Shown here: positions 8,226-26,678 of the stretch, piece after piece | Layout: each line of letters opens with the position of its first letter | Numbering within the stretch: the stretch's first letter is position 1 | DNA from: Ensifer canadensis | GTDB lineage: Bacteria > Pseudomonadota > Alphaproteobacteria > Rhizobiales > Rhizobiaceae | Direction: 5' to 3' | Length of the DNA: 64,000 bases | Assembly (NCBI RefSeq): GCF_017488845.2 | Contig: NZ_CP083373.1 | Location: forward strand, 372,001 to 436,000 | Translations under genes and position numbers: made by a program | Notes under the pieces: model-generated | Told to the model about the DNA's origin: nothing | Databases searched by the model: none | What the model saw: only the letters and a program-made list of their open reading frames with translations

Positions 8226-8249
8226 TTCATATATCGTTTCGTATATGAA
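8226..8249. promoter_or_regulatory. 24-bp operator, copy 1 of the block B/D regulon
   Basis: Perfect 8-bp inverted repeat TTCATATA-N8-TATATGAA. The same 24-bp element recurs at 21128-21151 (22 of 24 identical, opposite orientation) and 26655-26678 (18 of 24). Here it lies 30 bp before a small ORF and about 230 bp before the permease of the dipeptide-type operon. The copy before the GntR gene at 26741 suggests that regulator binds all three. Confidence 0.75.
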
Positions 8250-8278
8250 GTGGCGAAATAAGCAGGGGAACGCGCGCC

Positions 8279-8479
8279 ATGAATGACGATAGACAGATTC
8301 CAGCACAGTACGGTCTGAACGAGCGTGGCGAAGCCGCCGAGGCGGCGAGCGCAATTGTGACGGTGATCGCAAAGGCGGCGGCCTGTCCCTTCGACGGGGT
8401 ATCAGCGCCTTGCGGCCAGCCCTGCGGCGGCTGCATCCGGCGCGGCCGCTTTCCCGACCGCCTGACGGGAGGGTTTTGA
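8279..8479 (+). CDS. Small cysteine-containing protein (leader ORF?)
   Basis: A 66-codon frame directly after operator copy 1. AGGGGA lies about 9 bp before the ATG, and its stop ends one base before the permease start, so the two would be translationally coupled. The predicted protein has cysteines at 36, 45, 49 and 52 (C-x8-C-x3-C-x2-C, within CGQPCGGC), a spacing that could hold a metal. I recognise no family. It could be a genuine small protein, a coupling leader peptide or chance. Position and ribosome site favour translation. Confidence 0.5.
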   Translation: MNDDRQIPAQYGLNERGEAAEAASAIVTVIAKAAACPFDGVSAPCGQPCGGCIRRGRFPDRLTGGF

Positions 8480-8480
8480 G

Positions 8481-9437
8481 ATGTTGAAAATGCTGGTGGG
8501 ACGCTTGGGCAGCGGCGCGGTGACGCTCATGCTCGTGTCCCTGATCATTTACTTGGCGACGATCGCGCTGCCGGGGGATGCCGCCGTTGCCGTCCTTGGC
8601 AAGACCGCGACGCCGGAATCGCTTGCCGCCTTCCGGGCCGAGCATCATCTCGACCAGCCGGCGGCGCTGCGCTACCTCGCCTGGATCGGCGATCTGGCGA
8701 CGGGCGATTTCGGGGTGTCGGTCGTCAGTGGGGAACCGGCGGGCGACCTGATGGTCAGCCGGGGGCTCAGGACGCTGACGCTGATGGCTTTCGCCGTCGT
8801 CATCGGCTTTCCACTTGGCACGGCCATCGGCGTCTTCGCGGCCGTGCGGCGGAACAGCCCGGCGGACCACGCGATTTCCCTCACCATGCTGGTGATCACC
8901 GGCATTCCGGAATTCGCGCTGGCGGTGCTGACCGTGCTCGTCCTCAGCACGACCGTCTTCCAGCTTTTCCCGGCCGTGTCGATCTATAATGCGGACCAGT
9001 CGATTTTCGCGCAATTCGACATGCTTGTCCTGCCGATCCTGACGCTCGTGCTGACGATCCTGCCCTACATCGCGCTCACCATCCGCGCGTCGATGATCGA
9101 GATCCTCGACAGCGATTTCGTGGCCATGGCGCGGCTGAAGGGCGTGCCGGAGGGACGCGTGGTGCTGCGCCATGCGCTTGCCAACGCGGCCGGTCCGCTC
9201 ATCCAGGTCTTTGCCGTCACGCTGGTCTACATGGCGGGCGGCGCCATCATCGTCGAGACAGTGTTCCAGTTCCCGGGACTGGGAAGCGCCCTGGTGGAAG
9301 CCGTGCGTAACCGCGATCTGGTCGTGGTGCAGGCAACGACGCTGGTTCTCGCAATAATCTATATCGGAGTGAACATCCTGGCCGACCTCGTCGTCGTCGC
9401 CCTCACTCCGCGTCTGCGCACAAAGGTGACGGCATGA
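8481..9437 (+). CDS. Dipeptide/oligopeptide-type ABC permease (DppB-like)
   Basis: A 318-residue inner-membrane permease with about six helices. It has the DppB-type N-terminus (first helix, then a periplasmic loop with ALRYLAWIGDLATGDFG) and an EAA-type loop near FVAMARLKGVPEGRVVLRHALANA. GGGAGG lies before the ATG. It overlaps the second permease by ATGA. With the DppC-like permease, the fused ATPase and the binding protein downstream it forms a peptide/nickel/opine-class importer. The ligand is not predictable from sequence. Confidence 0.94.
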   Translation: MLKMLVGRLGSGAVTLMLVSLIIYLATIALPGDAAVAVLGKTATPESLAAFRAEHHLDQPAALRYLAWIGDLATGDFGVSVVSGEPAGDLMVSRGLRTLTLMAFAVVIGFPLGTAIGVFAAVRRNSPADHAISLTMLVITGIPEFALAVLTVLVLSTTVFQLFPAVSIYNADQSIFAQFDMLVLPILTLVLTILPYIALTIRASMIEILDSDFVAMARLKGVPEGRVVLRHALANAAGPLIQVFAVTLVYMAGGAIIVETVFQFPGLGSALVEAVRNRDLVVVQATTLVLAIIYIGVNILADLVVVALTPRLRTKVTA

Positions 9438-10333
9438 CTGTCCTGCAAGCCCACGAAGACCATCCCGCACCCGTCGTCAGGAAAAAGCCCGCCGGCATCT
9501 TTCTTTCGACGCTCCGCACACCCAAGGGCCGCATCGGCGCAATCCTGCTCGGATCGGTCGTGCTGCTCGCGATCCTAGGACCCTGGCTGACCTCGGTCGA
9601 TCCCGAAGACCTTGTGGGAATACCCTTCGATCCACCCGGACCGGACGCCCTGTTCGGCACGGATTATCTGGGGCACGACACGCTGAGCCGGTTCCTGCAC
9701 GGTGGGCGCGCCATCATGGTGCTGGCGGCCATCTCGGCCCTTCTCGGCGTCGGGCTCGGCACGGCGCTCGGGCTGGTCGCGGCCTATATGAAGGGCACGG
9801 TCGGTTCGATCGTCATGCGGGCGCTGGATGTGCTCTTGTGCTTTCCAGCCCTCGTCCTCACGCTGCTCGTCGCCTCGATGATCGGCACCTCGCTGCCGCT
9901 CGTCTGCATCGTGGTGGCGCTCTCGCATGTGCCGCGCACGGCGCGCGTTATCTATGCCTCGGCATTGCAGCTCTCGGAGCGCGAATTCGTCGTCTATGCG
10001 GAGATGATCGGCGCCAGCCGCTTTGGCGTGATGCTGCGCGAACTGCTGCCCAATCTTGCCGGCCTCGTCGCGCTCGAACTGGGCCTGCGGGCAACCTGGT
10101 CGATCGGCATCGTCGCATCGCTCAGCTTCATCGGCCTCGGCGTCCAGCCGCCGGCCGCCGACTGGGGCCTGATGATCAACGAGAACCAGCCGGGCCTGCT
10201 GCTGCAACCCTGGCCGGTCCTCTTGCCGGTGGCGGCGATCTGCATCGCGACGATCGGCGCGAACCTCTTCACCGACGCCTTCAGCCAGAAAACCGCCGGC
10301 GTGAGCCGCAGCATTACCTCCGGGGGTGAGTGA
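9434..10333 (+). CDS. Dipeptide/oligopeptide-type ABC permease (DppC-like)
   Basis: A 299-residue partner permease. The N-terminal cytoplasmic tail and first helix are followed by the DppC mark PDALFGTDYLGHDTLSRFLHGGR near residue 70, and the EAA-type loop EFVVYAEMIGASRFGVMLRELLPN lies in the second half. The start codon overlaps the stop of the first permease, and its own stop overlaps the ATPase start, so the three are translated as a coupled set. Confidence 0.94.
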   Translation: MTVLQAHEDHPAPVVRKKPAGIFLSTLRTPKGRIGAILLGSVVLLAILGPWLTSVDPEDLVGIPFDPPGPDALFGTDYLGHDTLSRFLHGGRAIMVLAAISALLGVGLGTALGLVAAYMKGTVGSIVMRALDVLLCFPALVLTLLVASMIGTSLPLVCIVVALSHVPRTARVIYASALQLSEREFVVYAEMIGASRFGVMLRELLPNLAGLVALELGLRATWSIGIVASLSFIGLGVQPPAADWGLMINENQPGLLLQPWPVLLPVAAICIATIGANLFTDAFSQKTAGVSRSITSGGE

Positions 10334-12144
10334 TGAACGTTGCGCCGAACCACCTCAGCGCGCCGGCGGGCGAGACGCAAGTGGCCCTTCAGGTCGAGGG
10401 GTTGCGGGTCGATGTCGTCGGCTCGAAGATCAATATCGTTGCCGAAGTCAATTTCAGCCTGCGGCCGGGCGAGATCATGGGCCTCGTCGGGGAGTCCGGC
10501 TCCGGCAAGACCACGGCGGCGCTGGCGCTGCTCGGCTATGCCAAGATCGGCACGGCCATCACCGCGGGCTCGGTCCGCATCCGCGGCGTCGATCTCCTGC
10601 CGCTCCCCTGGCAGGAGATCCGCCGCCAGCGCGGACGCCTCATTTCCTACGTGCCGCAGGATCCCGGTGCCTCGCTGAACCCCGCCATGCGGATCGGGGC
10701 GCAGATGCTGGAGGCACTCAACAAGGATGGAAAAGACCCTGAGGCGACCGGCCGGATGGCGCAGGCGCTCGCGGATGTCGCCCTTCCGGCGACGCTCGAA
10801 TTCCTCAGGCGCTTTCCGCATCAGCTTTCCGGCGGCCAGCAGCAGCGCGTCGGCCTTGCCATGGCCTTCATCGGCCGGCCGGCTGTCGTCGTCCTCGACG
10901 AGCCGACGACAGGGCTCGACGTCACCACACAGGCCCATGTGCTGGCGACGGTCCGGGATCTGTGCGCGCGCTACGGCACGGCGGCGGTCTATGTCAGCCA
11001 TGATCTCGCCGTCGTGAACGATCTCGCCGACAGCGTGGCCGTCATGTATCTCGGCCGCATCGTCGAATCCGGGCCGACCCATCTCACGCTGCGCTCCCCG
11101 GAACATCCCTATACGCGGCTGCTGATCTCGGCGATCCCCGATCCGCTGGTCCGTCGCAAGCTGCGCGGCATCGCCGGCCATGCCCCCTCGGTGGCGAGCC
11201 GGGACGGCGGCTGCGTCTTCGCATCGCGCTGCCCGGACGTGCTGGACAGCTGTCGCCGCTCGGAGCCGCCGCTGCTGCGGCTCCATTCGGATGGGCACAA
11301 GGTGGCGTGCCTGCGCCGGCAGACGACGGATGATACCGTTCCGTTCCGGGTGCCGGACATCGAAGCGGCGGCGGAAAGGGCGGAAAAGCCCGTGCTGCTC
11401 GGCGTATCGGGGCTCGATGCCGGCTACGGCACTGTCCGCATCCTCAAGGGCCTCGACCTGGAGATACGGCAGGGCCTGTGCACCGCCATCGTCGGCGAAT
11501 CCGGCAGCGGCAAGACGACGCTCGCCAAATGTCTCGGCGGCCTGCACACAGACGCGAAGGGCAGCCTCCAGCTGCACGGCGAGACGCTTCCCTTTGGCAC
11601 CCGCCGGCGCAGCACGGAGCAGCGGCGCGCGGTGCAGTACATTTTCCAAAACCCCTACAGTTCGCTGAACCCGCGCCGCACGGTGCATGAGCTGATCGCG
11701 CAATCCATCGCGGCCTTCACAGAAAAGGGCAGGGCGCCGCGCCAATCGGTGGCCGACCTGTTGTCGATGGTGGCCCTCAACCCGCGCCTTCACGACCGCT
11801 ACCCGCAGCAGCTCAGCGGCGGCGAGCGCCAGCGCGTGGCGATCGCGCGTGCGATCGCAGCAGACCCGGAAATCCTGATCTGCGACGAGATCACCAGCGC
11901 GCTCGATGTCTCCGTTCAGGCGTCGATCGTCCAGCTTCTGAAGACGCTGCACCGGCAGTCCGGCACCACCATCGTCTTCATCACGCACAACCTCGCCGTC
12001 GTGCGCGCCATCGCCGACCGGGTCGCCGTCGTCAAATCCGGGGTGCTCGTGGAAGAGGGGCCCAGCGATGCCGTGCTCGATGCCCCGCAAGACGCCTACA
12101 CACAGAATCTACTCCAGAGCACGCCGCGGCTCTGGTGGAGCTAA
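10333..12144 (+). CDS. Fused double ABC ATPase (DppD-DppF-like)
   Basis: A 603-residue protein joining both ATPases of a peptide-type importer. The first half has GESGSGKTT near residue 55, a signature LSGGQQQR and Walker B VVVLDEPTTGLD, followed by the cysteine-containing C-terminal region typical of oligopeptide transporters (GGCVFASRCPDVLDSC). The second half has a second GESGSGKTT, LSGGERQR and a Walker B-like ILICDEITSALD, where E-I replaces the usual E-P. I start at ATG 10333, overlapping the previous stop by one base, with GGGGGTGA upstream. Fused forms of this kind are known in the family. Confidence 0.94.
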   Translation: MNVAPNHLSAPAGETQVALQVEGLRVDVVGSKINIVAEVNFSLRPGEIMGLVGESGSGKTTAALALLGYAKIGTAITAGSVRIRGVDLLPLPWQEIRRQRGRLISYVPQDPGASLNPAMRIGAQMLEALNKDGKDPEATGRMAQALADVALPATLEFLRRFPHQLSGGQQQRVGLAMAFIGRPAVVVLDEPTTGLDVTTQAHVLATVRDLCARYGTAAVYVSHDLAVVNDLADSVAVMYLGRIVESGPTHLTLRSPEHPYTRLLISAIPDPLVRRKLRGIAGHAPSVASRDGGCVFASRCPDVLDSCRRSEPPLLRLHSDGHKVACLRRQTTDDTVPFRVPDIEAAAERAEKPVLLGVSGLDAGYGTVRILKGLDLEIRQGLCTAIVGESGSGKTTLAKCLGGLHTDAKGSLQLHGETLPFGTRRRSTEQRRAVQYIFQNPYSSLNPRRTVHELIAQSIAAFTEKGRAPRQSVADLLSMVALNPRLHDRYPQQLSGGERQRVAIARAIAADPEILICDEITSALDVSVQASIVQLLKTLHRQSGTTIVFITHNLAVVRAIADRVAVVKSGVLVEEGPSDAVLDAPQDAYTQNLLQSTPRLWWS

Positions 12145-12167
12145 CCAGCCAAATGAGGAGTGAATAA

Positions 12168-13028
12168 ATGAGCACGATGCAAGCCCCCGACGTCAGCCAT
12201 CTGGTCGACCTCGAGCGCTACCCGATCGACGATCTGGCGAGCCCGAAGCGCCGTGAATTGATCGAGAATGCCAAGGCCTCACTGCGTGAAAGCGGCCTTG
12301 CCAGCTTTCCGGGCTTCTTGACCGAGAAGGGCTTGGCGACCTGCGTCGCCGAGGTGGAAAGCCTCAAGAGCAAGGCCTATGCCCGCGACCTCCTGCGCTT
12401 CATCTATCCGCAGGAAACGCTCGACCCGTTGCTGCCGGCCGACCATCCGTTCCGCAAGCCGCAGCCGCTGATCCAGCGCATGCTGTCGGCCGATATTTTC
12501 GATGGCGAGAGCGAGCTGCGCAAGATCTACGAATGGGGCGGCCTGCCGCCGTTCTTCGCGGAAATCCTGGACCAGAGCGTCCACCACATCGTCGATCCGT
12601 TCCTGTCGCTCGCCGTCATCATGATGAACAACGGCCAGACCCACGATTGGCACTTCGACGGCAATGACTGGGTGGTCACGCTCTTGTTGCAACGCCCGGA
12701 ATCGGGCGGCGAATTCGAGTTCGTGCCGCATACCCGGGACAAGGCAAATCCGGGCCTGGATCGTGTCGAGGCGGTGCTGCGCGGCACGTCGGAGGAGGTG
12801 ATCTCCGTGTCCCAGGATGCCGGTACGCTCGTGCTCTTCTACGGCGACCAGTCACTGCACCGGGTCGCGCCGTCCAACGGCACGCGCGACCGCATGGTGG
12901 CGGCGTTCTCCTACGACAACGCGCCGGGCTTCGTCTTCAACGAGAAGGTCCACATGAACGCCTCGGGACGCACGACGCCGCTCTACGTGTCGCCGCGGCT
13001 CAGCGCCATGGCGGATGCTGCCAACTGA
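12168..13028 (+). CDS. Fe(II)/2-oxoglutarate-dependent oxygenase, probable amino-acid hydroxylase type
   Basis: A 286-residue cytoplasmic enzyme. The iron-binding facial triad is visible: H162-x-D164 in the segment WHFDGND and H231 in SLHRVAP, with R242 about 11 residues later placed to hold 2-oxoglutarate. This is the double-stranded beta-helix arrangement. The general pattern recalls the family that includes the BesD amino-acid halogenases and related lysine hydroxylases, but here the carboxylate ligand (D164) is intact, so hydroxylation rather than halogenation is expected. The family link is from memory and moderate. AGGAGTG precedes the ATG. It sits inside a peptide-type importer operon, between ATPase and binding protein, so the substrate may be the imported compound or a product of it. 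Confidence 0.8.
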   Translation: MSTMQAPDVSHLVDLERYPIDDLASPKRRELIENAKASLRESGLASFPGFLTEKGLATCVAEVESLKSKAYARDLLRFIYPQETLDPLLPADHPFRKPQPLIQRMLSADIFDGESELRKIYEWGGLPPFFAEILDQSVHHIVDPFLSLAVIMMNNGQTHDWHFDGNDWVVTLLLQRPESGGEFEFVPHTRDKANPGLDRVEAVLRGTSEEVISVSQDAGTLVLFYGDQSLHRVAPSNGTRDRMVAAFSYDNAPGFVFNEKVHMNASGRTTPLYVSPRLSAMADAAN

Positions 13029-13071
13029 ACCTGCAAAATTCCTGATCACTCCAAGGCCGAAGGAGCCGGTG

Positions 13072-14634
13072 ATGAAACCTACTTTGCTCATGCCCGCAAT
13101 GGTTACACGACGCAACGTCCTCCTCGGTGGGGGCATTGCCGCCGCCACGGTGCTCGCCGGCCCCTCCCTCCTGCGGAGCGCTTACGCGACCGACAATGCC
13201 ATCCCGAAACGGGGTGGCACCTTCCGGGTCGGCGCGGAGGACGCGAGTTCCAAGGACAATATGGACCCCGCGCTCGCCTTCTCCGGCTTCGCCGCCATGA
13301 TGTGCCGGGCGATGTACGATTCGCTCGTCAAGGAGGATGCGACCGGAAAACCCTACGATTCGCTCGCGGAGGTCTTCGAGCCTGACGCCACGGCGCAGGT
13401 CTGGACCATCCGCATCCGCGATGGCGTGACCTTCCACGACGGCAAGGCGGTGACGATCGATGACGTCATCTTCTCCATCACGCGCGCCATGACGACGACC
13501 GGGTCCCTGGCTGCGCGCAACCTCGAAGCCCTCGATCCCAAGGGCATCGAAAAGGACGGCAAGCATACGGCGCGTCTGCGCCTCAAGTATCCCTATTCTT
13601 TCTTCAAGCAGGCCTTCTTCCATCCGTCCCTGTCCATCGTTCCCACCGGCTTTGATCCGAAGAAGCCTGTCGGCTCTGGGCCGTTTAAGTTCGTCTCTTT
13701 CGAGGACCAAAAATTCATCGCCGAGCGCAACCCGAACTACTGGCTCGACGGAAAACCCTATCTCGACCGCATCGAGGTGATCGGCTTTGCCGACGCGACC
13801 ACGGCGCGGATGAACGCGCTGATGAGCGGCCAGATCGACGCCATGCCGAACCTCGCCTTCACGCAGGCGAGAACCATCGAGGGACGCGAGGACATCAAGC
13901 TGCTTTCGGCAGCCGGTGCCTCCTTCGAGCCCTTCACCATGCGGGTGGATCAGCCGCCGTTCAAAGATCCGCGCGTGCTCGAAGCGTTCAAGCTGATGGT
14001 CGATCGCGAACAGCTCTTGCGCAACGTCTATGCCGGGCGCGGGCGGATCGGCAACGATCTCGGCTGGGCGCAGGATCCCTACTACAATGCCGGCATCCCA
14101 CAGCGGGCCTATGATCCGGACAAGGCGAAATTCCTGCTCAAGGAAGCCGGCCAGGAAGGCCTTGAGATCGAACTGTATCCCAGCCCCGAAGCCCCGTGGA
14201 ACTCCGCGGCGGCGCAGGTTCTCGCCCAGCAGGCCAAAAAGGTCGGCGTCACCATCAAGCTGGCGGCCTCGGCCGACCTTTCCAGCTTCTACGACCAGAA
14301 ATACCTGAAGGTCGAGTTCAGCCAAGACATGTTCGGCCCCAACCCGCTGTCGGTGACCGCGGGCTATTCGCTGCTGCCGGATTCGCCCTACAACGAATCC
14401 CACTGGAAGGACGAGAAGGCGGCCGAACTGTTCAAGCTGGCTTCCTCCACCGGCGACAGCGAAAAGGCGCGCCAGTATCTCAATGACTTCCAGCAGCTCG
14501 TGCACGACAAGGCCGGCTGGATCGTCTGGGGTTTCCGCGACAGCCTGCAGGCCGTCACCGGCAAGTTCGGTGGGCTGGAGCCATCCTTGCGCGGCGTCAA
14601 TATGCACGACCTGTCGGGTGTCTGGGCGCTTTAG
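13072..14634 (+). CDS. Periplasmic peptide-type binding protein (DppA/SBP family 5)
   Basis: A 520-residue exported binding protein of the dipeptide/nickel/opine class. It has a Tat-like leader (TRRNVLLGG then a hydrophobic stretch and SAYA). The mature protein has the family order, including the VWTIRIRDGVTFHDGKAVT segment near residue 110 and GSGPFKF near 205. I choose the ATG at 13072 because AAGGAG precedes it; an earlier in-frame ATG at 13015 overlaps the oxygenase end without a ribosome site. It delivers substrate to the permeases encoded at 8481-10333. Confidence 0.94.
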   Translation: MKPTLLMPAMVTRRNVLLGGGIAAATVLAGPSLLRSAYATDNAIPKRGGTFRVGAEDASSKDNMDPALAFSGFAAMMCRAMYDSLVKEDATGKPYDSLAEVFEPDATAQVWTIRIRDGVTFHDGKAVTIDDVIFSITRAMTTTGSLAARNLEALDPKGIEKDGKHTARLRLKYPYSFFKQAFFHPSLSIVPTGFDPKKPVGSGPFKFVSFEDQKFIAERNPNYWLDGKPYLDRIEVIGFADATTARMNALMSGQIDAMPNLAFTQARTIEGREDIKLLSAAGASFEPFTMRVDQPPFKDPRVLEAFKLMVDREQLLRNVYAGRGRIGNDLGWAQDPYYNAGIPQRAYDPDKAKFLLKEAGQEGLEIELYPSPEAPWNSAAAQVLAQQAKKVGVTIKLAASADLSSFYDQKYLKVEFSQDMFGPNPLSVTAGYSLLPDSPYNESHWKDEKAAELFKLASSTGDSEKARQYLNDFQQLVHDKAGWIVWGFRDSLQAVTGKFGGLEPSLRGVNMHDLSGVWAL

Positions 14635-14650
14635 CCATCGCCAAAGATAT

Positions 14651-14670
14651 CGTGGCGCTCCGGCGCCACG
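14651..14670. promoter_or_regulatory. Hairpin between binding-protein and hydrolase genes
   Basis: Perfect 8-bp stem CGTGGCGC / GCGCCACG with a 4-base loop, 16 bp after the binding-protein stop and about 85 bp before the MBL gene. No T-run follows. It may stabilise the upstream message or reduce read-through rather than terminate fully. Confidence 0.5.
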
Positions 14671-14754
14671 CCCTGTTTCCTCCCCCGCCTTGCGCGCCGT
14701 CCGATCTTTGGGCGGTGCGCAAGCTCGGTTTCCCTTTCCCATGAGGCCCCGCCG

Positions 14755-15492
14755 ATGACACCGAACCGTTCAAGCCCTTCCGCCAATATCCGCGCCGAGG
14801 ACTGGTACGAGGTCGTGCCCTTCGCCGACGATGTCTTCCTGATCCACGAACCCTGGATCCATCCCTTCTTCCGCTGTAACATGTGGTTCGTGCGCGGGGC
14901 GGAACGCGATCTCCTCGTCGATACCGGCCTTGGCCATTTCGGCCTGCGGGCGCATGTGCCGCTGCTCCGCGGGCGGCCGATCGTCTGTGTATCGAGCCAT
15001 GCCCATTTCGACCATATCGGCAGCACCCACGAATTCGACATCCACCTTGCCCATCCGGCCGAAGCGGAGATTTTCGTCGATCCCCGGCCGGAATGGACGC
15101 TCGCCGCCGGCTATGCGAACGAGGACATGTTCATCGCCCCGCCGGAAGGCTGGGAAAGCGCCGCCTATCGCGTCAAACCGTGCCCGGCGACTGGCTTTGT
15201 CGAGGACGGCGACGTGGTCGATATCGGCGACCGGCGCTTCGAGGTCATCCACACGCCCGGCCATTCGCCGGGCGGCATCGCGCTGTTCGAGCGGGCGACC
15301 GGCACGCTGATCGCCGGGGACATTGTCTATGACGGCGACCTTATTGACGACACGTTCCACTCCGACAGGGCGGCCTATCGCGCCTCGCTGGCGCGTGTGG
15401 CGGATTTGCCCGTCCGCATCGTGCATGGTGGCCATTTCGCAAGCTTCGGACCGACGCGTTTGCAGCAAGTGGTCGCGGCCTACACAGGCTGA
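14755..15492 (+). CDS. Metallo-beta-lactamase-fold hydrolase
   Basis: A 245-residue protein with the MBL metal-binding set: HAHFDH at residues 82-87, the H170 histidine in HTPGHSPGG, D189 in AGDIVYDGD and a late histidine in VHGGHF. Two metal ions are expected. Such enzymes hydrolyse thioesters, lactones or similar bonds; no sub-family mark pins the substrate. It is the last gene of the peptide-importer operon and ends only 3 bp from the convergent GntR stop, so this is a tight operon boundary. Confidence 0.9.
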   Translation: MTPNRSSPSANIRAEDWYEVVPFADDVFLIHEPWIHPFFRCNMWFVRGAERDLLVDTGLGHFGLRAHVPLLRGRPIVCVSSHAHFDHIGSTHEFDIHLAHPAEAEIFVDPRPEWTLAAGYANEDMFIAPPEGWESAAYRVKPCPATGFVEDGDVVDIGDRRFEVIHTPGHSPGGIALFERATGTLIAGDIVYDGDLIDDTFHSDRAAYRASLARVADLPVRIVHGGHFASFGPTRLQQVVAAYTG

Positions 15493-15495
15493 GCG

Positions 15496-16164
15496 TCACA
15501 TAACCTCGCGCAGGTCGGCCGACGACTGGCGCAGATGGGCAACGATGCCGGCGCGGGAGGCCTGTGGATCGCCGGCCATGACCGCATCCGCCACCTGCTT
15601 GTGGAAGTCGCCGTCGGAGGATTTTGCGCGCAGGCGGTCGCGGCAATAGTACCAGAGCCGGACGCTGAGATTGAGATACTGGTTGAGCGAGGCTTCCAGG
15701 AAGGGGTTGTGCGCGGCGCGGTACAGGAGGCGGTGGAATTCCGTGTCGAGCGCGTTGATGCGCAGCGGGTGCGATTCTCCGAGCAGTGTCTCGACACAGG
15801 CCGTGATCGCCCGCCTTTCCTCGACGCTCGCACGCGCGGCGGCGAGTTCCGCCGCCAGCCCCTCCATCTCCACGCGGGCTTCCGTCAGCCATCGCTCGTC
15901 CGCCAAGTTGATCTCGCTGACGAAGGTGCCGCGCCGCGGATAGACGACGATCAGATGTTCGAGCGCCAAGCGCTTGATCGCATCGCGAACCGGCGTCAGG
16001 CCGACGCCGAGAGGACCCGCCAGATCCGCCTCGTTGAGCGGCGCACCGGGCGGAAGCGCAAGCGAGATGATGCGGTCGCGGATGCTCTCGTAGGCAAGGG
16101 CGACGGCCGGGGTCGCGCCGTCACGCTGATGTCTGCCCTGCACTTCAAAAATTTCAGATCGCAT
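15496..16164 (-). CDS. GntR-family regulator (FadR/FCD type)
   Basis: A 222-residue regulator. A winged helix-turn-helix fills about residues 20-90 (AYESIRDRIISLALPPG, then VGLTPVRDAIKRLALEHLI), followed by a helical FCD effector domain with the expected histidine-containing segments. It is divergent from the spermidine-type importer at 16285, with a 16-bp perfect palindrome between them. It most likely controls that importer and itself. It is convergent, 3 bp apart, with the MBL hydrolase gene. Confidence 0.92.
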   Translation of the reverse strand: MRSEIFEVQGRHQRDGATPAVALAYESIRDRIISLALPPGAPLNEADLAGPLGVGLTPVRDAIKRLALEHLIVVYPRRGTFVSEINLADERWLTEARVEMEGLAAELAAARASVEERRAITACVETLLGESHPLRINALDTEFHRLLYRAAHNPFLEASLNQYLNLSVRLWYYCRDRLRAKSSDGDFHKQVADAVMAGDPQASRAGIVAHLRQSSADLREVM

Positions 16165-16230
16165 CGGTTGTTCCTGCTCGCATCGATTTCCCAGAAATAG
16201 CGTTGACAGGCGCTGAGGAAAAGATACGTT

Positions 16231-16246
16231 AACTGAAATTTCAGTT
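16231..16246. promoter_or_regulatory. Perfect 16-bp palindrome, candidate GntR operator
   Basis: AACTGAAATTTCAGTT is fully symmetric and lies in the divergent promoter region, 67 bp from the GntR start and 38 bp from the ATPase start. Position and symmetry suggest the binding site of the adjacent GntR protein. It differs from the 24-bp element of blocks B and D, so the two GntR proteins probably run separate circuits. Confidence 0.6.
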
Positions 16247-16284
16247 GCACGGTTAAAAAAACTTTAGGCAAAGGGGATTGTTCG

Positions 16285-17337: not shown

Positions 17338-17385
17338 CAGGCAATCCGAGCCGCCAAGCGGTCAGTATCATGCAAGAGGAACACT

Positions 17386-17775
17386 ATGCCAAAGGACAAC
17401 ACCAACGACACCGCCGCAAAGAGCGGCGTCCAGGTCATCAAGTTCGCCGATCCGGCTAACGACTGGCACGATTACGGCGACATGCCGGGCGACCGCACGC
17501 CGGGCAATCCGATCGGCCAGCACGCCTCCGTTTGGAAATCGGACGATGGCCGCGTGACGGTCGGCCTCTGGCGCCGCGACGCCGACTTCGGCGACTTACT
17601 GGGCACCGGCCAGTGCTTCGACTTCGTCATCGAGGGCGACGTGACGGTGACTGACCAGCATGGCCGAGCCCATGTCGCCAATTCCGGCGACCTGCTCATC
17701 TACAACGAGGAGGACGAGGGAAGCTGGGAACAGCCCGGCCCGATCCGCAAGATCTTCATCCACGTGCGCGACTGA
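17386..17775 (+). CDS. Small cupin-domain protein
   Basis: A 129-residue single-domain cupin-like protein. The second half shows a beta-barrel pattern with the glycine-centred turns DFVIEGDVTVTDQHGRAHVANSGDLLIYNEED, resembling cupin motif 1 and the following strands. Several expected metal ligands are not obvious, so binding or sensing is as likely as catalysis. A good ribosome site (AGAGG) precedes the ATG. It lies between the ATPase and binding-protein genes of a spermidine-type importer, so it may act on the imported compound. Function is not predicted. Confidence 0.8.
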   Translation: MPKDNTNDTAAKSGVQVIKFADPANDWHDYGDMPGDRTPGNPIGQHASVWKSDDGRVTVGLWRRDADFGDLLGTGQCFDFVIEGDVTVTDQHGRAHVANSGDLLIYNEEDEGSWEQPGPIRKIFIHVRD

Positions 17776-17806
17776 CAGTATCACCGACCATAAAAGGGGA
17801 ACGTCC

Positions 17807-19964: not shown

Positions 19965-20790
19965 CACCACCAACACGCGGGAAGGATGGGCTGTCAAGCT
20001 TGTGATCGGGCTGGCGCTGGTCTTCATGTTCGCGCCCGTCGTCACGATGATCGTCTTTTCCTTCAACGATCCCGGTGGGCGCTTCAACTACGAGCTCGGC
20101 ACCTTCTCGCTTGCGGCGTGGCGCAGCCCTTTCGCCGTGCCGCAGCTCGGGATGGCGCTCGGCAACAGCCTTATCGTGGCGGCGGTCTCGGCGCTGCTTG
20201 CGGCGCTTCTTGGCACGCCGGTCGGTTTTGCGTTGGGCCGGCGGCAATTTATCGGGCGCGGCGCGGTCTCGGGCCTCACCTTCATTCCGCTCGCGACCCC
20301 GGAAGTGGTGCTCGGCGCGGGCATGCTGATCCTCTTCGTGGCCACGGCGACGATCCCCTTCCTGAAAACCCTGACGGGCGGTCTCTTCTATCCGCTCGGG
20401 TTTCCGAGCGTCATCGCCGCGCACACGACGCTGGGTCTCAGCTTCGTGATTATCAATGTGCGCTCCCGCGTCATCGGCGCCGGCGTCACGCTCGAACATG
20501 CCGCGCGCGATCTCGGCGCCTGCGGTTTCACCGTATTCCGCACAATCTGGCTGCCGATCATCCTGCCGGGCATCCTCTCCGGCGCGCTGCTGGTCTTCGC
20601 GATCTCGCTCGACGATTTCGTGCTAACCAACTTCACCGCCGGTGGAACGACCATGTTCCCGACCTGGCTCTACGGCCTGATGCGCCGCGAGCTGCCGCCG
20701 CAGATCGCCGTGGTCGGCACGCTGATCTTCCTCGTCTCGCTCGGCCTCGTCGCCCTTTCGGTAAAAATCTCGGGGCGTCAGCCGGCCTGA
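19954..20790 (+). CDS. ABC permease, PotC-like
   Basis: A 278-residue second permease of the spermidine-type importer, with about six helices and a normal EAA-type loop (EHAARDLGACGFTVFRTIWLPIILPG). It overlaps the PotB-like gene by 11 bases. It ends 17 bp from the convergent 87-aa gene, which marks the operon end. Its normal length contrasts with the enlarged partner permease. Confidence 0.93.
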   Translation: MSSSTTNTREGWAVKLVIGLALVFMFAPVVTMIVFSFNDPGGRFNYELGTFSLAAWRSPFAVPQLGMALGNSLIVAAVSALLAALLGTPVGFALGRRQFIGRGAVSGLTFIPLATPEVVLGAGMLILFVATATIPFLKTLTGGLFYPLGFPSVIAAHTTLGLSFVIINVRSRVIGAGVTLEHAARDLGACGFTVFRTIWLPIILPGILSGALLVFAISLDDFVLTNFTAGGTTMFPTWLYGLMRRELPPQIAVVGTLIFLVSLGLVALSVKISGRQPA

Positions 20791-20807
20791 CGCCCTACCA
20801 ATCGCCG

Positions 20808-21071
20808 TCAGTCCCGGTCGAGCCGGCGGCTGACGCGCCAGCGATCCTCGCCCCGGTTTTCCAGCAGCCACGATTTTTGCGCGATCGCCGTTCCCTTGCC
20901 GGTCCTGTAGGCGTCGATCCTCAGTGCGATCCGACCCTCGTCCAGGCGCTCGACGCGGGCGCCTGCCACCTCTCCGTCGCTGAACTCCACATGCACGGGC
21001 CCATCCTGCGGCAATGCCTCGGCAACGACCGGGCAGCCCGGGTAGGCGTGGCTATCCATTATTCTGATCAT
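20808..21071 (-). CDS. Small conserved-looking protein of unknown function
   Basis: An 87-residue frame with AAAGGAG eight bases before the ATG at 21071. Composition is acidic and basic mixed with no membrane helix. The C-terminal part (TGKGTAIAQKSWLLENRGEDRWRVSRR) looks like a beta-rich small domain. I recognise no family. It is divergent from the cyclotransferase-like gene and separated from it by operator copy 2, whose left end is 57 bp from its start, so it is likely in the same regulon. Confidence 0.6.
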   Translation of the reverse strand: MIRIMDSHAYPGCPVVAEALPQDGPVHVEFSDGEVAGARVERLDEGRIALRIDAYRTGKGTAIAQKSWLLENRGEDRWRVSRRLDRD

Positions 21072-21127
21072 GCTCTCGCTCCTTTCGAATGATCGCAGCC
21101 GAGGGGTGTCTTGACCACGCATATTTC

Positions 21128-21151
21128 TTCATATACGAAACCATATATGGA
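21128..21151. promoter_or_regulatory. 24-bp operator, copy 2 of the block B/D regulon
   Basis: Same element as at 8226, read in the opposite direction: 22 of 24 positions agree, and the shared core is ATATGGTTTCGTATATGAA-like on the minus strand. It lies in the divergent gap between the 87-aa gene (57 bp away) and the cyclotransferase-like gene (77 bp away) and could control both directions. Confidence 0.75.
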
Positions 21152-21228
21152 GACGTGGCCAACGGCGATCTCCGATGCAACGCAACAAAAATGGGCGCAG
21201 TTTCCACCGCCCCATGGAAGAGGTTTTT

Positions 21229-21729
21229 ATGTACTACTTCGCCTATTGCACATGGCTGCACGACATCGAGGTCTCTCGTTTCATGCCGGAGGCAAAGCCG
21301 GTCACCAAGGCCTATGCGGCCAACCATGCGCTGCGCTTCCACGCCGCAGGCGATCGCACTGACCGAGGCTGGTGCCATTTCCTCAACACGGCGGATGCCT
21401 GGGGCGAGCGCGCCTATGGCGTCGTCTTCGAACATGACGAGACGCATTTCCAGGAGGATTACGACGACTTCGAGCGCTGCTGTATGACGGTCTACGGCGA
21501 GGACGGCAAGCAATACGATTGCTGGACCTATCGCCTGATCCGGCCGGGCATCGCCATGCGTCCGCCGAACTTTTACTGGGAGCACATCCCGGCCGGCATG
21601 AAGCAGTGGAACTTCTCGCCGGAATACATCGCAAAGGTTCAGGCGGTCTTCGACAATGCTGCCGAATGCCCGCGCGCCGACCGGCCGAACCCGTCGAAGG
21701 TGCCGGGCAAGGGCGCCGATACGCGCTGA
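21229..21729 (+). CDS. Gamma-glutamylcyclotransferase-fold protein
   Basis: A 166-residue protein of the GGCT/AIG2-like fold. The order of elements fits the family: YFAYCTWL at the start where YGSxL is usual, the proline-containing MPEAKPVTKAYAANHALRF, then AYGVVFEHDE with following acidic residues where the catalytic glutamate belongs, CWTYRLI, and a final W-x-F-S-x-E-Y-I helix. Family members cyclise gamma-glutamyl groups to release 5-oxoproline. The glycine-serine pair of the nucleophile-binding loop is replaced, so chemistry may differ. The ATG at 21229 follows GGAAGAGG; an upstream in-frame ATG lacks a site. It leads the amino-acid transporter operon. Confidence 0.75.
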   Translation: MYYFAYCTWLHDIEVSRFMPEAKPVTKAYAANHALRFHAAGDRTDRGWCHFLNTADAWGERAYGVVFEHDETHFQEDYDDFERCCMTVYGEDGKQYDCWTYRLIRPGIAMRPPNFYWEHIPAGMKQWNFSPEYIAKVQAVFDNAAECPRADRPNPSKVPGKGADTR

Positions 21730-21811
21730 CAACCGCGGCGGCGGCGCCAGTTGCCGCCGCCGCCTTTCCATGCGGACTGCAAACAAGATCAACAATGACA
21801 GGGGTAACGCA

Positions 21812-22678
21812 ATGAAACATGGGATCATCCGCACGTTTGTACTGGCGGCTGCGATGACGGCGGTCGTCGCCGGCGCCGCGCAGGCCGGGGCGGGGGCGAA
21901 GCTCGTGCCCGAGGCCGTTCGCCAGGCAGGCAAGATCACTGTAGGATCGCAGCAGACCTTTCCGCCGATCGAATTCCGTGAGCCGGGCGCAAGCGAGGTG
22001 ACGGGCGCTAGCTCCGATCTCCTGCACGAGATCGCCAAGCGTCTCGAGCTGAAGCTCGAGTATGTGCAGGCCGAGTATGCGGCCCTCATTCCCGGTATCG
22101 AAGCCAAGCGCTTCGACGTCGCCTCCGGCGGAATCAGTGACACCGAAGAGCGCGAGCAGAAGCTCGATTTCGTGAACTACATGTTGTCCGGCGGCTCGGC
22201 CATGGTGCGCACCGAGGATGCGGACAAGTACAAGACCATCGCGGATTTCTGCGGCAAGTCCGTCGCTACACTGCTCGGCAGCCGCGTCATCATGGCGAAG
22301 GTCGAGGAGGCATCCGCCGCCTGCACGGCCAAGGGTGAGGCGGAAATCCGCGCCGAGCAACTTCCCTCGGCACCCGATGCCCGCATGCAGCTCGACCTCA
22401 AGCGTGTCGATGCCTATCTCGGTGACTTTCCCGCACTCGTCTACATGAGTGGTCAGTTCCCGGGCAAATACTCCATCGTCGGCGGTAACTACATGCTGAC
22501 GCCCTACATCACCTCCTGGGGTTTTTCCAAGGACAACACCGGCCTTCGTGATGCGGTGAAGCTGACGCTACAGGAAATGCTGGCTGACGGCGGCTACAAG
22601 AGCATCATGGACAAGTGGGGTGTTGGCGGCGCCCTGCTGCCGGAAATTACCGTCAACCTGCCGGCCAGCAAGCGCTGA
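21812..22678 (+). CDS. Periplasmic amino-acid binding protein (SBP family 3)
   Basis: A 288-residue exported binding protein with a Sec signal (MKHGIIRTFVLAAAMTAVVAG, cleaved near AQAG). The mature protein has the family 3 pattern: KITVGSQQTFPPIEF, then ASSDLLHEIAKRL and FDVASGGISDTEER. AGGGG lies nine bases before the ATG. It delivers a polar amino acid or small derivative to the HisM-type permease that follows. Confidence 0.93.
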   Translation: MKHGIIRTFVLAAAMTAVVAGAAQAGAGAKLVPEAVRQAGKITVGSQQTFPPIEFREPGASEVTGASSDLLHEIAKRLELKLEYVQAEYAALIPGIEAKRFDVASGGISDTEEREQKLDFVNYMLSGGSAMVRTEDADKYKTIADFCGKSVATLLGSRVIMAKVEEASAACTAKGEAEIRAEQLPSAPDARMQLDLKRVDAYLGDFPALVYMSGQFPGKYSIVGGNYMLTPYITSWGFSKDNTGLRDAVKLTLQEMLADGGYKSIMDKWGVGGALLPEITVNLPASKR

Positions 22679-22693
22679 CGGGGAGGAAGGGTC

Positions 22694-23542
22694 ATGGCCA
22701 TGACGAACCGTCTTTCTGCCTCGGAGCTCCCGATCGTGCATCGACGCCGCTGGGGAGCCTGGCTCCTCGGCGCCGTCGCGCTGGCGCTGGTGGTGACGAT
22801 CGTTCATGCGGCTATCCGCGCGCGGATCGTCAACCTCGGCGTCTTCGCCGACTACATCTTCGATCCGCTCATCGTCATGGGGGCGGTCAACGCCCTCATG
22901 CTCGGCACGCTGGCACTGTTCATCGCCACTGCGATCGGGTTCGTGGCCGCGCTGATGCGGGTGAGCGGCAACCCCATCCTGGTCGCGATCTCCTCGACCT
23001 ATGTCTATCTCTTCCGCGGCACGCCGATGCTGATCCAGCTCATCTTCTGGTTCAACGCGGTGCCGATCATGTTCCCCTCGATCACCATCGGCCTGCCCTT
23101 CATGGCCGAACCGCTATACTCGACGCCGACGACCTCACTCGTGACGCCCTTCCTTGCCGCGCTCGCCGGCCTCAGCCTTGCGGAAGGCGCTTACATGAGC
23201 GAGATCATTCGCGCCGGCATCCTTGCGGTCGACAAGGGCCAGCGGGCGGCGGCGACCGCGCTCGGCATGACCCAGCCTCAGGTGCTGGCGCAGGTCGTTA
23301 TTCCGCAGGCCAGCCGCATAATCATCCCGGCGGCGGGCAACCAGTACATCATGCTCTTGAAATCGTCGTCGCTTGCCTCGGCCATTGGCTATCTCGAACT
23401 CTTGCGCGTGGCGACAGACATCTATTCGTCGAACTTCCAGGTCGTCGAGCTGCTGGCCGTCGCGGCCTTCTGGTATCTCGTCATGACCGCCTTCGCGACA
23501 GCGATCCAGACCGTCCTCGAAAAGGTTTTCCCGCAAAGATGA
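22694..23542 (+). CDS. Polar amino-acid ABC permease (HisM/GlnP-like)
   Basis: A 282-residue inner-membrane permease with the polar amino-acid pattern FRGTPMLIQLIFW and the EAA-type loop ADKGQRAAATALGMTQPQVLAQVVIPQA (reading KGQRAAATALG). GGGGAGGAAGG precedes the ATG. It overlaps the ATPase start by ATGA. It is the only permease gene of this importer, so it would work as a homodimer. Confidence 0.94.
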   Translation: MAMTNRLSASELPIVHRRRWGAWLLGAVALALVVTIVHAAIRARIVNLGVFADYIFDPLIVMGAVNALMLGTLALFIATAIGFVAALMRVSGNPILVAISSTYVYLFRGTPMLIQLIFWFNAVPIMFPSITIGLPFMAEPLYSTPTTSLVTPFLAALAGLSLAEGAYMSEIIRAGILAVDKGQRAAATALGMTQPQVLAQVVIPQASRIIIPAAGNQYIMLLKSSSLASAIGYLELLRVATDIYSSNFQVVELLAVAAFWYLVMTAFATAIQTVLEKVFPQR

Positions 23543-24330
23543 GCATCGCACCCGAACATTCCCACGCCGTTTCCGTGGTTGGCGTCTCCAAAAAATGGGG
23601 AACCGTCTCGGCCTTCACCGATGTCAGCTTCGACGTGCCGCAGGGCGAGGTCGTGGCGCTGCTCGGTCCCTCAGGCGCCGGCAAGTCCACGCTGCTGCGC
23701 TGCGTCAACCATCTGGAAACCATCTCCGCCGGCCGCATCTACGTGCACGGCGATCTGATCGGCTACCGGCTGGGCGATCAGGCGCTTTACGAACTGTCCG
23801 ACGCGGAGATCAGCCGCCAGCGGCAGAAGATCGGCATGGTGTTCCAGCACTTCAACCTGTTCAAGCACATGACGGCGCTCCAGAATGTCATGAGCGGACC
23901 AGTCCATGTGCTAAAACGGCCGAAGGCAGAAGTGGGCAAGCTGGCGATGGACCTGCTCGCCAAGGTCGGGCTTAAGGCCAAGGCGGATGCCTACCCCTCG
24001 GAGCTATCCGGCGGCCAGCAACAGCGGGTCGCCATCGCTCGGGCTCTTGCCATGCAGCCGCGCGTTCTGCTGCTCGACGAGCCGACCTCCGCGCTCGACC
24101 CGGAACTCGCTCAGGAAGTCGTCGAGACGATCCGCAAGCTGGCGGAGGAGGGCCAGACGATGCTGATCGCTACCCACGACATGGCCATCGCGCGCGAGGT
24201 GGCCGACCGGGTGATCTTCATGGAGGGCGGGCGTCTCGCCGAAGACGCGCCGTCCAGCGAATTCTTCACCGCACCGAAGAGTGACCGTGCCCGGCAATTC
24301 CTGGCGCGACTCCTGCCTGCGGTGCACTAG
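23539..24330 (+). CDS. Polar amino-acid ABC ATPase (GlnQ/HisP-like)
   Basis: A 263-residue ATPase: Walker [11 protein letters not shown]-loop [11 protein letters not shown], signature LSGGQQQR, Walker [15 protein letters not shown]. The true start is the ATG at 23539 overlapping the permease stop; a longer open frame runs through the permease gene in another phase and is a shadow. It drives the importer of the cyclotransferase operon. Confidence 0.95.
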
Positions 24331-24447
24331 GGCAATTCTGGACGTAAAACCAAAGCACTGCCGGTCCGACCTCACCATTCCCCGATCCGCCTGCGCGATT
24401 TCCGCGCCGGCGAAGCCTTGTCCGCATTCCGAAATAAGGAGCCCGCC

Positions 24448-24885
24448 ATGACCGGAATCTTCCAGCACCTGCATCACGTTTGCATCCTCGTCCACGACCT
24501 GGAGAAGACGGTTTTCTATTACGAAAGCCTCGGCGTCGGTCCTTGGTTCGACTATCCGAAGAAGGGCACCTATGTCGAACTGGAGGTGCCCAACAAAGCG
24601 GCTTCGGATGCCATGCGCTACAAATGCTGCGACCTCGACAATGTGCAGCTCCAGCTCTGCCAGCCCGGTGAGCTGGACTCCCCACAAAAGCGGTTCCTCG
24701 ATGAGCGCGGAGAGGGCGTCTACCATCTGGGCTTCGAAGTCGCCGACCGGGACGCGGCGGAGGCAAACGGCCGCGCGCTTGGGCTTGGCGTGATTGCCCG
24801 CGGGAAAAAGACCGATGGATCGGGCTTTTGCTATTTCGACACGCGGGAGAAGGCGGGCACCGTGCTCGAAATCCGAAAATCGTGA
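24448..24885 (+). CDS. VOC-family (glyoxalase / methylmalonyl-CoA epimerase-like) protein
   Basis: A 145-residue vicinal-oxygen-chelate protein. The first strand carries the metal histidine (LHHVCILVHDLEKTVFYYESLG), the middle shows EGVYHLGFEVAD with a second ligand position, and the end (KAGTVLEIRKS) carries the expected glutamate. Members are metal-dependent lyases, isomerases or dioxygenases. AAGGAG precedes the ATG at 24448. It follows the amino-acid ATPase by about 120 bp and overlaps the exporter gene, so it belongs to the same operon. Reaction unknown. Confidence 0.85.
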   Translation: MTGIFQHLHHVCILVHDLEKTVFYYESLGVGPWFDYPKKGTYVELEVPNKAASDAMRYKCCDLDNVQLQLCQPGELDSPQKRFLDERGEGVYHLGFEVADRDAAEANGRALGLGVIARGKKTDGSGFCYFDTREKAGTVLEIRKS

Positions 24886-25823
24886 GACAGGCGATAGCGC
24901 GCATCTTTTCCATCGCGGGCCCCGAAGTCGCTTTGCGCGCGCTATTCCGCGGGCGCGAGAGCGTCGTGCTGTGCCTGACCGCCATGTTTCTATTTGCGGC
25001 ATCAGACGTCATCGCCAAGCATCTATCGATGACCTTTCATCCCTTGCAGATTGCTTGGTTCCGCTATGCGGTGGCGCTCTTTTTTCTTGCAGCGATTTGC
25101 CTGCGCTTCGGCAGACCGACGCGAAGTGTGTTTGCGTCAGCACAACTCGTTCGCGGCCTCGGCATGGCCGGTGCAACGATCTTGCTGGTGGCGGCCCTGC
25201 GCCTGCAGCCGATGGCCGAAGCGACGGCGCTTGTCTTCATTTCCCCGTGCCTGGTCACACTGCTTTGCGTACTGATACTCAAGGAGAGAGTGCATGTCTG
25301 GCAGTGGGTTGGCCTTATTGGCGGTTTGCTGGGAGTTCTGGTCATCCTGCGTCCCGGATTTGCCGGCTACAATCCCGCGGCGCTTTTCTCTATCGCCTCC
25401 GCCGCCTGCTGGGCGACGGCCCTGGTCATGACGCGAAGGGCGGTAGTCGCCGACAGCCTGACGACGACACTTGCCTATTCCGCCCTGACGGGTTTTGTGC
25501 TTTTGACTGGCACGCTGCCCTTCGTCCTCCATACCATGACGACCGTTGATATCGCCCTTTCGGTCGCGATGGCGTGTCTGTGGCTGGCGGCGCACGTCTC
25601 CATTGCCTTCGCCTATCGCCGACCCGAGGTACACGTCTCTCGGTTGGCGCCGATTTCCTACACCCACGTCCTCTGGGCCGTCAGTTTCGGCTACCTCGTC
25701 TTCGGCGCGATACCAGACGGCATGACGATCATTGGTGCAGGGCTGATCATCGCCAGCGGCCTGGTGGCGCACAAAGCGCAGGACAAGCCGCTCGTAACCC
25801 CATCGGAAAGGACTTTGTCATGA
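24882..25823 (+). CDS. DMT-superfamily (EamA) transporter
   Basis: About 313 residues with ten predicted membrane helices in two EamA repeats (first helix SVVLCLTAMFLFAASDVIAK). I choose the GTG at 24882 overlapping the VOC stop; an in-frame ATG near 24984 would cut the first helix. The ribosome site is weak, so translation probably depends on coupling. EamA carriers usually export amino acids, metabolites or drugs. Placed next to importer genes and a ProC-type reductase, it may expel an end product or excess amino acid. Confidence 0.88.
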   Translation: MRQAIARIFSIAGPEVALRALFRGRESVVLCLTAMFLFAASDVIAKHLSMTFHPLQIAWFRYAVALFFLAAICLRFGRPTRSVFASAQLVRGLGMAGATILLVAALRLQPMAEATALVFISPCLVTLLCVLILKERVHVWQWVGLIGGLLGVLVILRPGFAGYNPAALFSIASAACWATALVMTRRAVVADSLTTTLAYSALTGFVLLTGTLPFVLHTMTTVDIALSVAMACLWLAAHVSIAFAYRRPEVHVSRLAPISYTHVLWAVSFGYLVFGAIPDGMTIIGAGLIIASGLVAHKAQDKPLVTPSERTLS

Positions 25824-26629
25824 CGCAGGTTCTGCTTATCGGTGCGGGCAATATGGGGTTCGCCATGCTGCGAACCTGGATCGGGATGGAGGGCCATCGT
25901 TTCGCGGTCGTCGAAGTCAATGAGAGCTTGCGGCAGCGGGCGGAGAGCGTCGGCGCGCAAGCCTATGATGCCGTGTCCGACCTGCCGGTGGATTTAGCGG
26001 CAAATGTCGTGGTGATCGCGACCAAGCCGCAGGCGGTCGCCGATGCGGTTGCAGACAGCCGAGCCGTTCTCGGCCAAGACGGACTGCTAATGTCAGTCGC
26101 TGCCGGCATCACCATCGATGGCATGCGTCAATATGCGGGGGAGGGACCTGCCATTGTCCGCTGCATGCCGAATACGCCCGCGGCGATCGGCGAAGGCATG
26201 GTCGTCTGCTGCGCAAGCGCGAATGCGCGCTCGTCAGACCGCGCGCTCGCACTGAGCCTGCTTTCAGCCATTGGCCGCGTTGCGTTTATCGAAAACGAGA
26301 GCTTGATGGACGCGGTGACGGCAATGTCCGGTTCCGGACCGGCCTATGTCTTCCATCTGCTAGAAGCCTTTAGCGCGGCGGGCGTCGCGGCTGGCCTGCC
26401 AGAGGACCTCGCCATGACGTTGGCCAAGCAGACCGTCTTCGGCGCGGCGAAGCTGGCATTGGCGTCGGGTGCCGATCCAGCCGTCCTTCGTGAGCAGGTG
26501 ACAAGCGCGCACGGCACGACGGCCGCCGCTCTCTCCGTGCTGATGAACCCGGAAGTCGGCTTGGCTGTTTTGTTTCGGCGCGCTGTCGAGGCGGCACGGC
26601 ACCGCTCGTTGGAGCTCGGTGCCGAGTAA
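25820..26629 (+). CDS. proC: Pyrroline-5-carboxylate reductase-family enzyme
   Basis: A 269-residue NAD(P)H-dependent reductase. The Rossmann motif GAGNMG is at residues 8-13, and the C-terminal family signature appears as MSGSGPAYVFHLLEA with VTSAHGTTAAALSVL. ProC converts 1-pyrroline-5-carboxylate to L-proline; relatives in catabolic clusters reduce other cyclic imines. The ATG overlaps the exporter stop and AAAGGA precedes it. A second proC in an accessory operon, next to a cyclotransferase and amino-acid importer, suggests a dedicated rather than housekeeping role. Confidence 0.92.
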   Translation: MTQVLLIGAGNMGFAMLRTWIGMEGHRFAVVEVNESLRQRAESVGAQAYDAVSDLPVDLAANVVVIATKPQAVADAVADSRAVLGQDGLLMSVAAGITIDGMRQYAGEGPAIVRCMPNTPAAIGEGMVVCCASANARSSDRALALSLLSAIGRVAFIENESLMDAVTAMSGSGPAYVFHLLEAFSAAGVAAGLPEDLAMTLAKQTVFGAAKLALASGADPAVLREQVTSAHGTTAAALSVLMNPEVGLAVLFRRAVEAARHRSLELGAE

Positions 26630-26654
26630 GTGTTTGAATTCCGTCGCTCGTTGC

Positions 26655-26678
26655 TCCATACACGAAATGATATATTTG
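26655..26678. promoter_or_regulatory. 24-bp operator, copy 3, before the GntR gene
   Basis: Matches copy 1 at 18 of 24 positions when read on the minus strand (core ATATATCATTTCGTGTATGG). It ends 62 bp before the GntR start, as expected for autoregulation, and follows the proC stop by 25 bp. Confidence 0.7.

Follow-up and report, generated by a model that had tools for sequence, protein, structure and literature searches.

Phased RTATAY box arrays as candidate operators of a probably autoregulated FCD-type GntR factor in an importer gene cluster of Ensifer canadensis

Two described systems are among the closest to the regulator and DNA element considered here. The E. coli regulator NanR recognizes a (GGTATA)3 operator to which three dimers bind cooperatively; a defined spacing is needed, ligand weakens the binding, and cooperativity is mediated by a 32-residue N-terminal extension of the protein (PMC8012715). 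More broadly, operators of the FadR subfamily of GntR regulators are palindromic GT..AC pairs, usually 2 to 3 nucleotides (nt) apart, and for HypR, GntR, UxuR, MdcY and others a single GT-N2-AC palindrome is typical, often with a weaker half-site 7 to 12 nt from its center (PMC4494728). Here, we analyze a 64-kb window (the whole stretch of Ensifer canadensis DNA under study), which is part of the 782-kb contig C4 in a genome of 8.09 Mb and six contigs. The window contains an 18.5-kb importer gene cluster in which three promoters carry a repeated element. We propose that the three sites are very probably operators of one autoregulated factor, which we call GntR1, built as arrays of (G/A)TATA(C/T) boxes (RTATAY, below) on which cooperating dimers would repress transcription until released by a ligand. 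The arrays and the gene of their predicted regulator are as follows.

8226 to 8249, no strand assigned: peptide-importer operon array, with boxes at 8229-8234 (ATATAT) and 8241-8246 (GTATAT), 12 bp apart; conserved in the Shinella locus L046
21119 to 21148, no strand assigned: cyclotransferase-like operon array, with boxes at 21119-21124 (GCATAT, one mismatch), 21131-21136 (ATATAC) and 21143-21148 (ATATAT); it contains most of copy 2
26655 to 26678, no strand assigned: site before gntR1, with a degenerate box at 26658-26663 (ATACAC) and a box at 26670-26675 (ATATAT), 12 bp apart
26741 to 27391, plus strand: GntR1, an FCD-type (FadR-subfamily) GntR protein, the predicted regulator of all three arrays

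The initial annotation had described the element as a single 24-bp motif, TTCATATA-N8-TATATGAA, with copies at 8226-8249 (copy 1), 21128-21151 (copy 2) and 26655-26678 (copy 3). All three are present at these coordinates, and the sequence confirms that each is positioned at a promoter. The consensus itself stood only in part: copy 1 has no mismatch to it and copy 2 has one, but copy 3 carries only 11 of the 16 fixed letters. The agreements of 22/24 positions between copies 1 and 2 and 18/24 between copies 1 and 3 require that the reverse complement of copy 1 be compared; on the same strand they are 16/24 and 12/24. The conserved unit is the RTATAY box, repeated at an exact pitch of 12 bp; the array ahead of the cyclotransferase-like gene has three boxes, that of the peptide importer two, and that of gntR1 two, one of them degenerate. 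In the arrays of the window, A-T replaces the G-C of GTATAC at one or both ends of a box.

Relatives of GntR1 were taken from 12 GTDB genome loci (72 to 93% identity), from six of seven plasmid records and from further genomes; those of the GTDB loci belong to Rhizobium, Pararhizobium, Shinella, Ochrobactrum, Brucella and other Rhizobiales. The cyclotransferase-like gene and gntR1 occur together in all 12 genome loci and in all six plasmid records, and they are accompanied by the importer in 11 of the 12 loci (not L040) and in each of the six records. Among eight plasmid records with the cyclotransferase-like gene, GntR1 was detected in seven at E ≤ 1e-30, and the eighth, from Nonomuraea, encodes a 42% identical GntR1 relative within the same cluster. 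At least two exact RTATAY boxes at 12-bp pitch precede the cyclotransferase-like gene in all 22 loci tabulated, which include Roseomonas, Azospirillum and the betaproteobacterium Variovorax, and a third box with at most one mismatch is found in 20 of these 22 promoters. A perfect GTATAC box occurs in nine of the 22, but in none of the window's own arrays. By comparison, TTC..GAA outer arms surround the box pair in only 5 of the 22 promoters; the 24-bp element did not hold up as the conserved unit. A 23rd syntenic locus, that of the actinomycete Nonomuraea, contains only two RTATAY sites within 14.5 kb, one of them 55 bp ahead of the cyclotransferase-like gene and the other about 52 bp ahead of GntR1; their degenerate partners at the 12-bp pitch, with one and two mismatches, are suggestive only. 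Lack of conservation in orthologous clusters would have spoken against a regulon; instead, box pairs are kept in 22 of the 23 syntenic loci and are degenerate in the last.

We next consider the spacing of the boxes quantitatively. The 22 loci (511 kb) contain 175 RTATAY sites. Of the pairs they form, 43 have a spacing of 12 bp and 10 a spacing of 24 bp; every other spacing up to 40 bp is represented at most four times, besides 10 self-overlaps at 2 bp. In ten first-order Markov simulations, zero or one pair at 12 bp was obtained, and the loci of 28 paralogous FCD regulators (98 kb) contain no box pair at 12 bp. Duplicate loci (L031-L033, L067 and L068), short loci and the Nonomuraea locus were left out of this count, while close relatives (L037/L046, L042-L044, L045/L047 and L080/L081) were kept, so the counts do not represent independent events.

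We observe the same association between arrays and regulator across 394 genomes of the family. GntR1 (E ≤ 1e-50) is present in nine of these genomes. The pattern TATACGAANNNNTATAYG occurs in eight, six of them with GntR1, and an exact three-box pattern occurs in nine, five of them with GntR1. Either pattern is found in 9/9 GntR1 genomes versus 6/385 others (Fisher, 8.7e-15), a comparison that is partly circular. When the six genomes whose loci had already been seen are removed and the first pattern alone is used, the association persists in this blind subset (2/3 GntR1 genomes versus 2/385; p = 2.4e-4). In the two blind matches, G301 and G314, GntR1 is only 45 to 47% identical; in both, the VOC gene and the cyclotransferase-like gene of that same cluster flank the pattern. 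Our confidence in the GntR1 reading derives from copies 1 and 2, the orthologous promoters and the blind subset. The initial annotation had proposed that one regulator, the GntR protein encoded at 26741, links the three sites, and this is now the best-supported explanation, by way of synteny, conserved box pairs, co-occurrence in the 394 genomes and absence at the 28 paralogous loci.

The GntR1 protein scores 53 bits against Pfam family PF00392 and 84.5 bits against PF07729, in each case more than the cut-off, which places it in the FadR/FCD subfamily. Its GntR domain begins at residue 14, leaving about 13 residues ahead of the helix-turn-helix. We envision the box as a near-palindromic 12-mer around (G/A)TATA(C/T). 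By analogy with the FadR-subfamily consensus, each box may be the site of one dimer (PMC4494728), and neighboring dimers may cooperate and repress as described in part for NanR (PMC8012715). Two GntR1 dimers would thus occupy neighboring boxes at each operator, and three at the cyclotransferase-like promoter, in a cooperative manner. The bound dimers would cover the promoter and repress it, and a ligand derived from the imported compound could bind the FCD domain and release GntR1. The outcome would be that the two importers coordinate the import and processing of one nitrogenous compound.

The arrays adjoin possible promoter elements. In an alignment of 15 cyclotransferase-like promoters, TTGAC is invariant ahead of the AT-rich boxes, and it is found in 16 of the 22 once seven more distant loci are added. 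Autoregulation is suggested by the site before gntR1, where ATACAC or GTACAC is followed 12 bp on by RTATAY in 9 of 10 loci of the window's clade; the case for copy 3 would rest on this conservation and on its position, not on rarity of sequence. Extra arrays in relatives lie before a VOC gene (L064 and L065), a family-3 binding protein (L041) and a binding-protein-like open reading frame (ORF; L045), and RTATAY box pairs are found just before AsnC-type regulator genes (L047, 8798; L080, 13886). These additional arrays suggest lineage-specific growth of the regulon. The AsnC-type genes lie near branched-chain-type importers on Agrobacterium and Azospirillum plasmids.

The other features of the cluster are listed below. 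A spermidine-type importer is also present within the 8.2- to 27.4-kb part of the window.

8210 to 8237, plus strand: promoter-like TTGACC-16-TATCGT, a consensus match only, its 3' part overlapped by the copy 1 array
8279 to 8479, plus strand: Cys-rich ORF of 66 amino acids, first in the peptide-importer operon; in alignment partly conserved in Shinella L046, where it is unannotated
8481 to 14634, plus strand: peptide-type importer, comprising two permeases, a fused double ATPase and a family-5 binding protein
12168 to 13028, plus strand: HalD-like 2-oxoglutarate-Fe(II) (2OG-Fe(II)) oxygenase, inside the peptide-type importer stretch
14755 to 15492, plus strand: MBL-fold metallo-hydrolase
15496 to 16164, minus strand: GntR2, an FCD-type GntR regulator (Pfam GntR and FCD; the Shinella orthologue is annotated GntR)
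16231 to 16246, no strand assigned: perfect palindrome AACTGAAATTTCAGTT ahead of gntR2, with a core that Shinella, G168 and G314 share; distinct from the arrays
20808 to 21071, minus strand: gene of 87 amino acids, divergent from the cyclotransferase-like operon; copy 2 begins 57 bp ahead of its ATG
21111 to 21116, plus strand: TTGACC, -35-like; the consensus scan reports no promoter here
21229 to 21729, plus strand: gamma-glutamylcyclotransferase-like protein, named after the RefSeq annotation of its orthologues
21812 to 24330, plus strand: amino-acid-type importer, comprising binding protein, permease and ATPase
24448 to 26629, plus strand: VOC/glyoxalase protein, DMT-type transporter (named from orthologue annotation) and ProC-type reductase

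We considered whether the operator could instead be a genuine inverted repeat over the full 24 bp, to which a single dimer would bind through half-sites set far apart, in an IclR-like or similar manner. In line with this idea, the full TTCATATA-N8-TATATGAA is found not only in copy 1 but also in the distant loci L064 and L065, the latter with two sites. However, when agreement in the flanks outside the cores was scored for 38 distinct sites (228 positions), the inverted reading reached 94, the direct reading 97, and the reading of each 12-mer as its own palindrome 103; the direct and inverted readings fit the flanks equally because each box is itself near-palindromic. The third box, together with the outer arms in so few promoters, favors an array of 12-bp units. 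No IclR-type gene was recognized among the scanned ORFs, a scan that took in part of the ORFs of the window. On the flank scores and the outer-arm counts, the 24-bp inverted repeat is not favored as the functional unit, and we regard it as improbable. A more general origin would be a global AT-rich element, such as an UP element, a site for integration host factor (IHF) or a nucleoid protein, or a dispersed repeat, and the location of AT-rich boxes at promoters fits such an element. Against it stand the strict pitch, the co-occurrence with GntR1, the empty control loci of the 28 paralogues, and the rarity of the exact two-box pattern, which in the 8.09 Mb of the window's genome occurs at copies 1 and 2 only. 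The genome-wide motif search proposed in the initial annotation, for which many unrelated copies would have signified a dispersed repeat, did not reveal such copies. Allowing up to three mismatches, for which 0.02 matches are expected per window, the consensus has five sites in the genome, namely copies 1 and 2 and three sites at three mismatches, and a reversed control pattern also has five. Only copies 1 and 2 are thus exceptional by sequence genome-wide, since they have zero and one mismatches against three elsewhere and the control count is equal; copy 3 was not recovered by the consensus search with three mismatches. With one mismatch, the two-box pattern gives 25 matches versus 20 for its reversed control, so that copy 3 by sequence alone, or any further member, is indistinguishable from background. 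A dispersed repeat or a chance origin is rejected on the genome-wide counts, the simulations and the 28 control loci, and a global element of any kind appears exceedingly unlikely.

The main rival to GntR1 is GntR2, the second FCD-GntR protein of the cluster, which might bind the three sites in its place; the initial annotation makes no mention of it. Its gene is located between copies 1 and 2 and adjoins the peptide-importer operon, and the protein is of the same FCD class. Yet GntR2 (E ≤ 1e-40) is present in only 3 of the 394 genomes, two of them with arrays; 13 of the 15 genomes with an array pattern are without GntR2, and seven of the nine GntR1 genomes have arrays without it. The genome G168 provides a converse case: it keeps GntR2 (83%), LacI, the oxygenase, the hydrolase and the spermidine-type importer, but GntR1 is missing from it at E ≤ 1e-50, neither array pattern occurs genome-wide, and three stretches totaling 54 kb contain no pair of boxes even when one mismatch is allowed. 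Moreover, a palindrome, ACTGAAATTTCAGT, is conserved before gntR2 in the window, in two Shinella loci, in G168 and in G314, whose GntR2 is 44% identical, which argues for a separate GntR2 box. Based on the co-occurrence, G168 and this separate palindrome, we reject GntR2 as the common regulator as highly unlikely. Within the cluster, the AACTGAAATTTCAGTT palindrome is probably an independent second operator, presumed to be that of GntR2. Another conserved block, TTTATATCGTTAAAG at 8167-8181, is found in Shinella and largely recurs beside the LacI gene in G168. It was dropped as a further box, as in G168 neither importer nor array adjoins LacI, and it is probably a LacI operator.

Several observations weigh against GntR1 as the regulator of all three arrays. 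Copy 3, a one-mismatch two-box site, is not rare genome-wide; in L035 a 2-bp deletion disrupts the pitch before gntR1, and in L040-L044, where gntR1 lies inside the operon, no exact box pair precedes it. The copy 1 site was seen in two loci only, the window and Shinella L046, the latter being the sole other locus with that importer promoter in the sample. The arrays of L064, L065 and L078-L081 (6 of 22) have no TTGAC ahead of them, and the consensus promoter scan called a pair only at copy 1 and none at copies 2 and 3. As for circularity, six of the nine GntR1 genomes had loci that were already known when the first co-occurrence pattern was composed, and all five GntR1 genomes matched by the second pattern had shown arrays before that pattern was composed. 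Six genomes of the family carry an array pattern but no GntR1. In one genome, G053, a triple RTATAY array (L100, 1501-1530) has a different FCD regulator (29% identity) on one side and a gamma-glutamyltranspeptidase gene on the other, and because this array adjoins a different FCD regulator, the RTATAY box is not private to GntR1. The name of the cyclotransferase-like protein is backed by no matching Pfam or NCBIfam family. Finally, GntR1 is without the 32-residue N-terminal extension that is the source of cooperativity in NanR, and its dimer-dimer contacts must therefore differ from those of NanR.

The gene content offers clues to the ligand of GntR1. Relatives of the amino-acid-importer binding protein include binders of glutamine and basic amino acids, among others, and the peptide-type binding protein is similar to binders of peptides and agrocinopine. 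For the oxygenase, the similarity is to lysine halogenases and hydroxylases, at E values of 6.5e-07 or weaker. From the cyclotransferase-like protein, ProC and the amino-acid and peptide importers, our guess is that the ligand may be an amino compound, possibly gamma-glutamyl-linked. Structure prediction for the cyclotransferase-like protein gave a mean predicted local distance difference test (pLDDT) score of 36 and was unusable. Its N terminus is a conserved M-x-YF-x-YCTW, and an invariant DDFER is also present in 14 aligned orthologues; the N-terminal motif of the cyclotransferase family is usually YGSNL.

For an uncharacterized importer cluster that distant bacteria share, this analysis supplies a candidate regulator, a precisely defined operator and a spacing rule open to falsification, and the array can be used as a search probe for more genes of the pathway. 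Among the matches listed from the open-licence literature, no paper was evidently on the regulation of this cluster. We also entertain, tentatively and with some doubt, a broader proposal: a class of FCD-GntR regulators may assemble as short phased arrays on RTATAY boxes at 12-bp pitch without a NanR-like extension, range from alpha- and betaproteobacteria to an actinomycete (there with degenerate boxes), include at least one other FCD clade (that of G053), and control how a gamma-glutamyl-type or related amino compound is imported and processed.

How GntR1 relates to characterized regulators can be judged from both protein and DNA. Its best NCBIfam match is PhnR_burk (TIGR03338), to which it aligns over residues 14-206, but with a score of 109 bits against a cut-off of 271.5, and no phosphonate genes were recognized among the scanned ORFs of the cluster. 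Against the NanR equivalog NF003011 it scores 64.8 bits, where the cut-off is 260, and its best-scoring match to the solved NanR covers the FCD part only, residues 86-208. Like NanR, GntR1 is an FCD-type regulator associated with a short TATA-containing box that recurs up to three times, with a fixed spacing, at a promoter; unlike NanR, it has a different box, and the 12-bp pitch is stated here for the GntR1 arrays only. The GTATAC box of nine promoters fits the GT-N2-AC consensus of the FadR subfamily (PMC4494728), whereas the single palindromes of those regulators contrast with two or three boxes at 12-bp pitch and with the window's imperfect boxes. Because this pitch is kept over distant bacteria, it offers a handle on how GntR dimers cooperate, which has been worked out structurally for NanR. 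Taken together, the cluster is most likely a regulon under an FCD-GntR protein that also regulates its own gene, with an operator made of several phased boxes.

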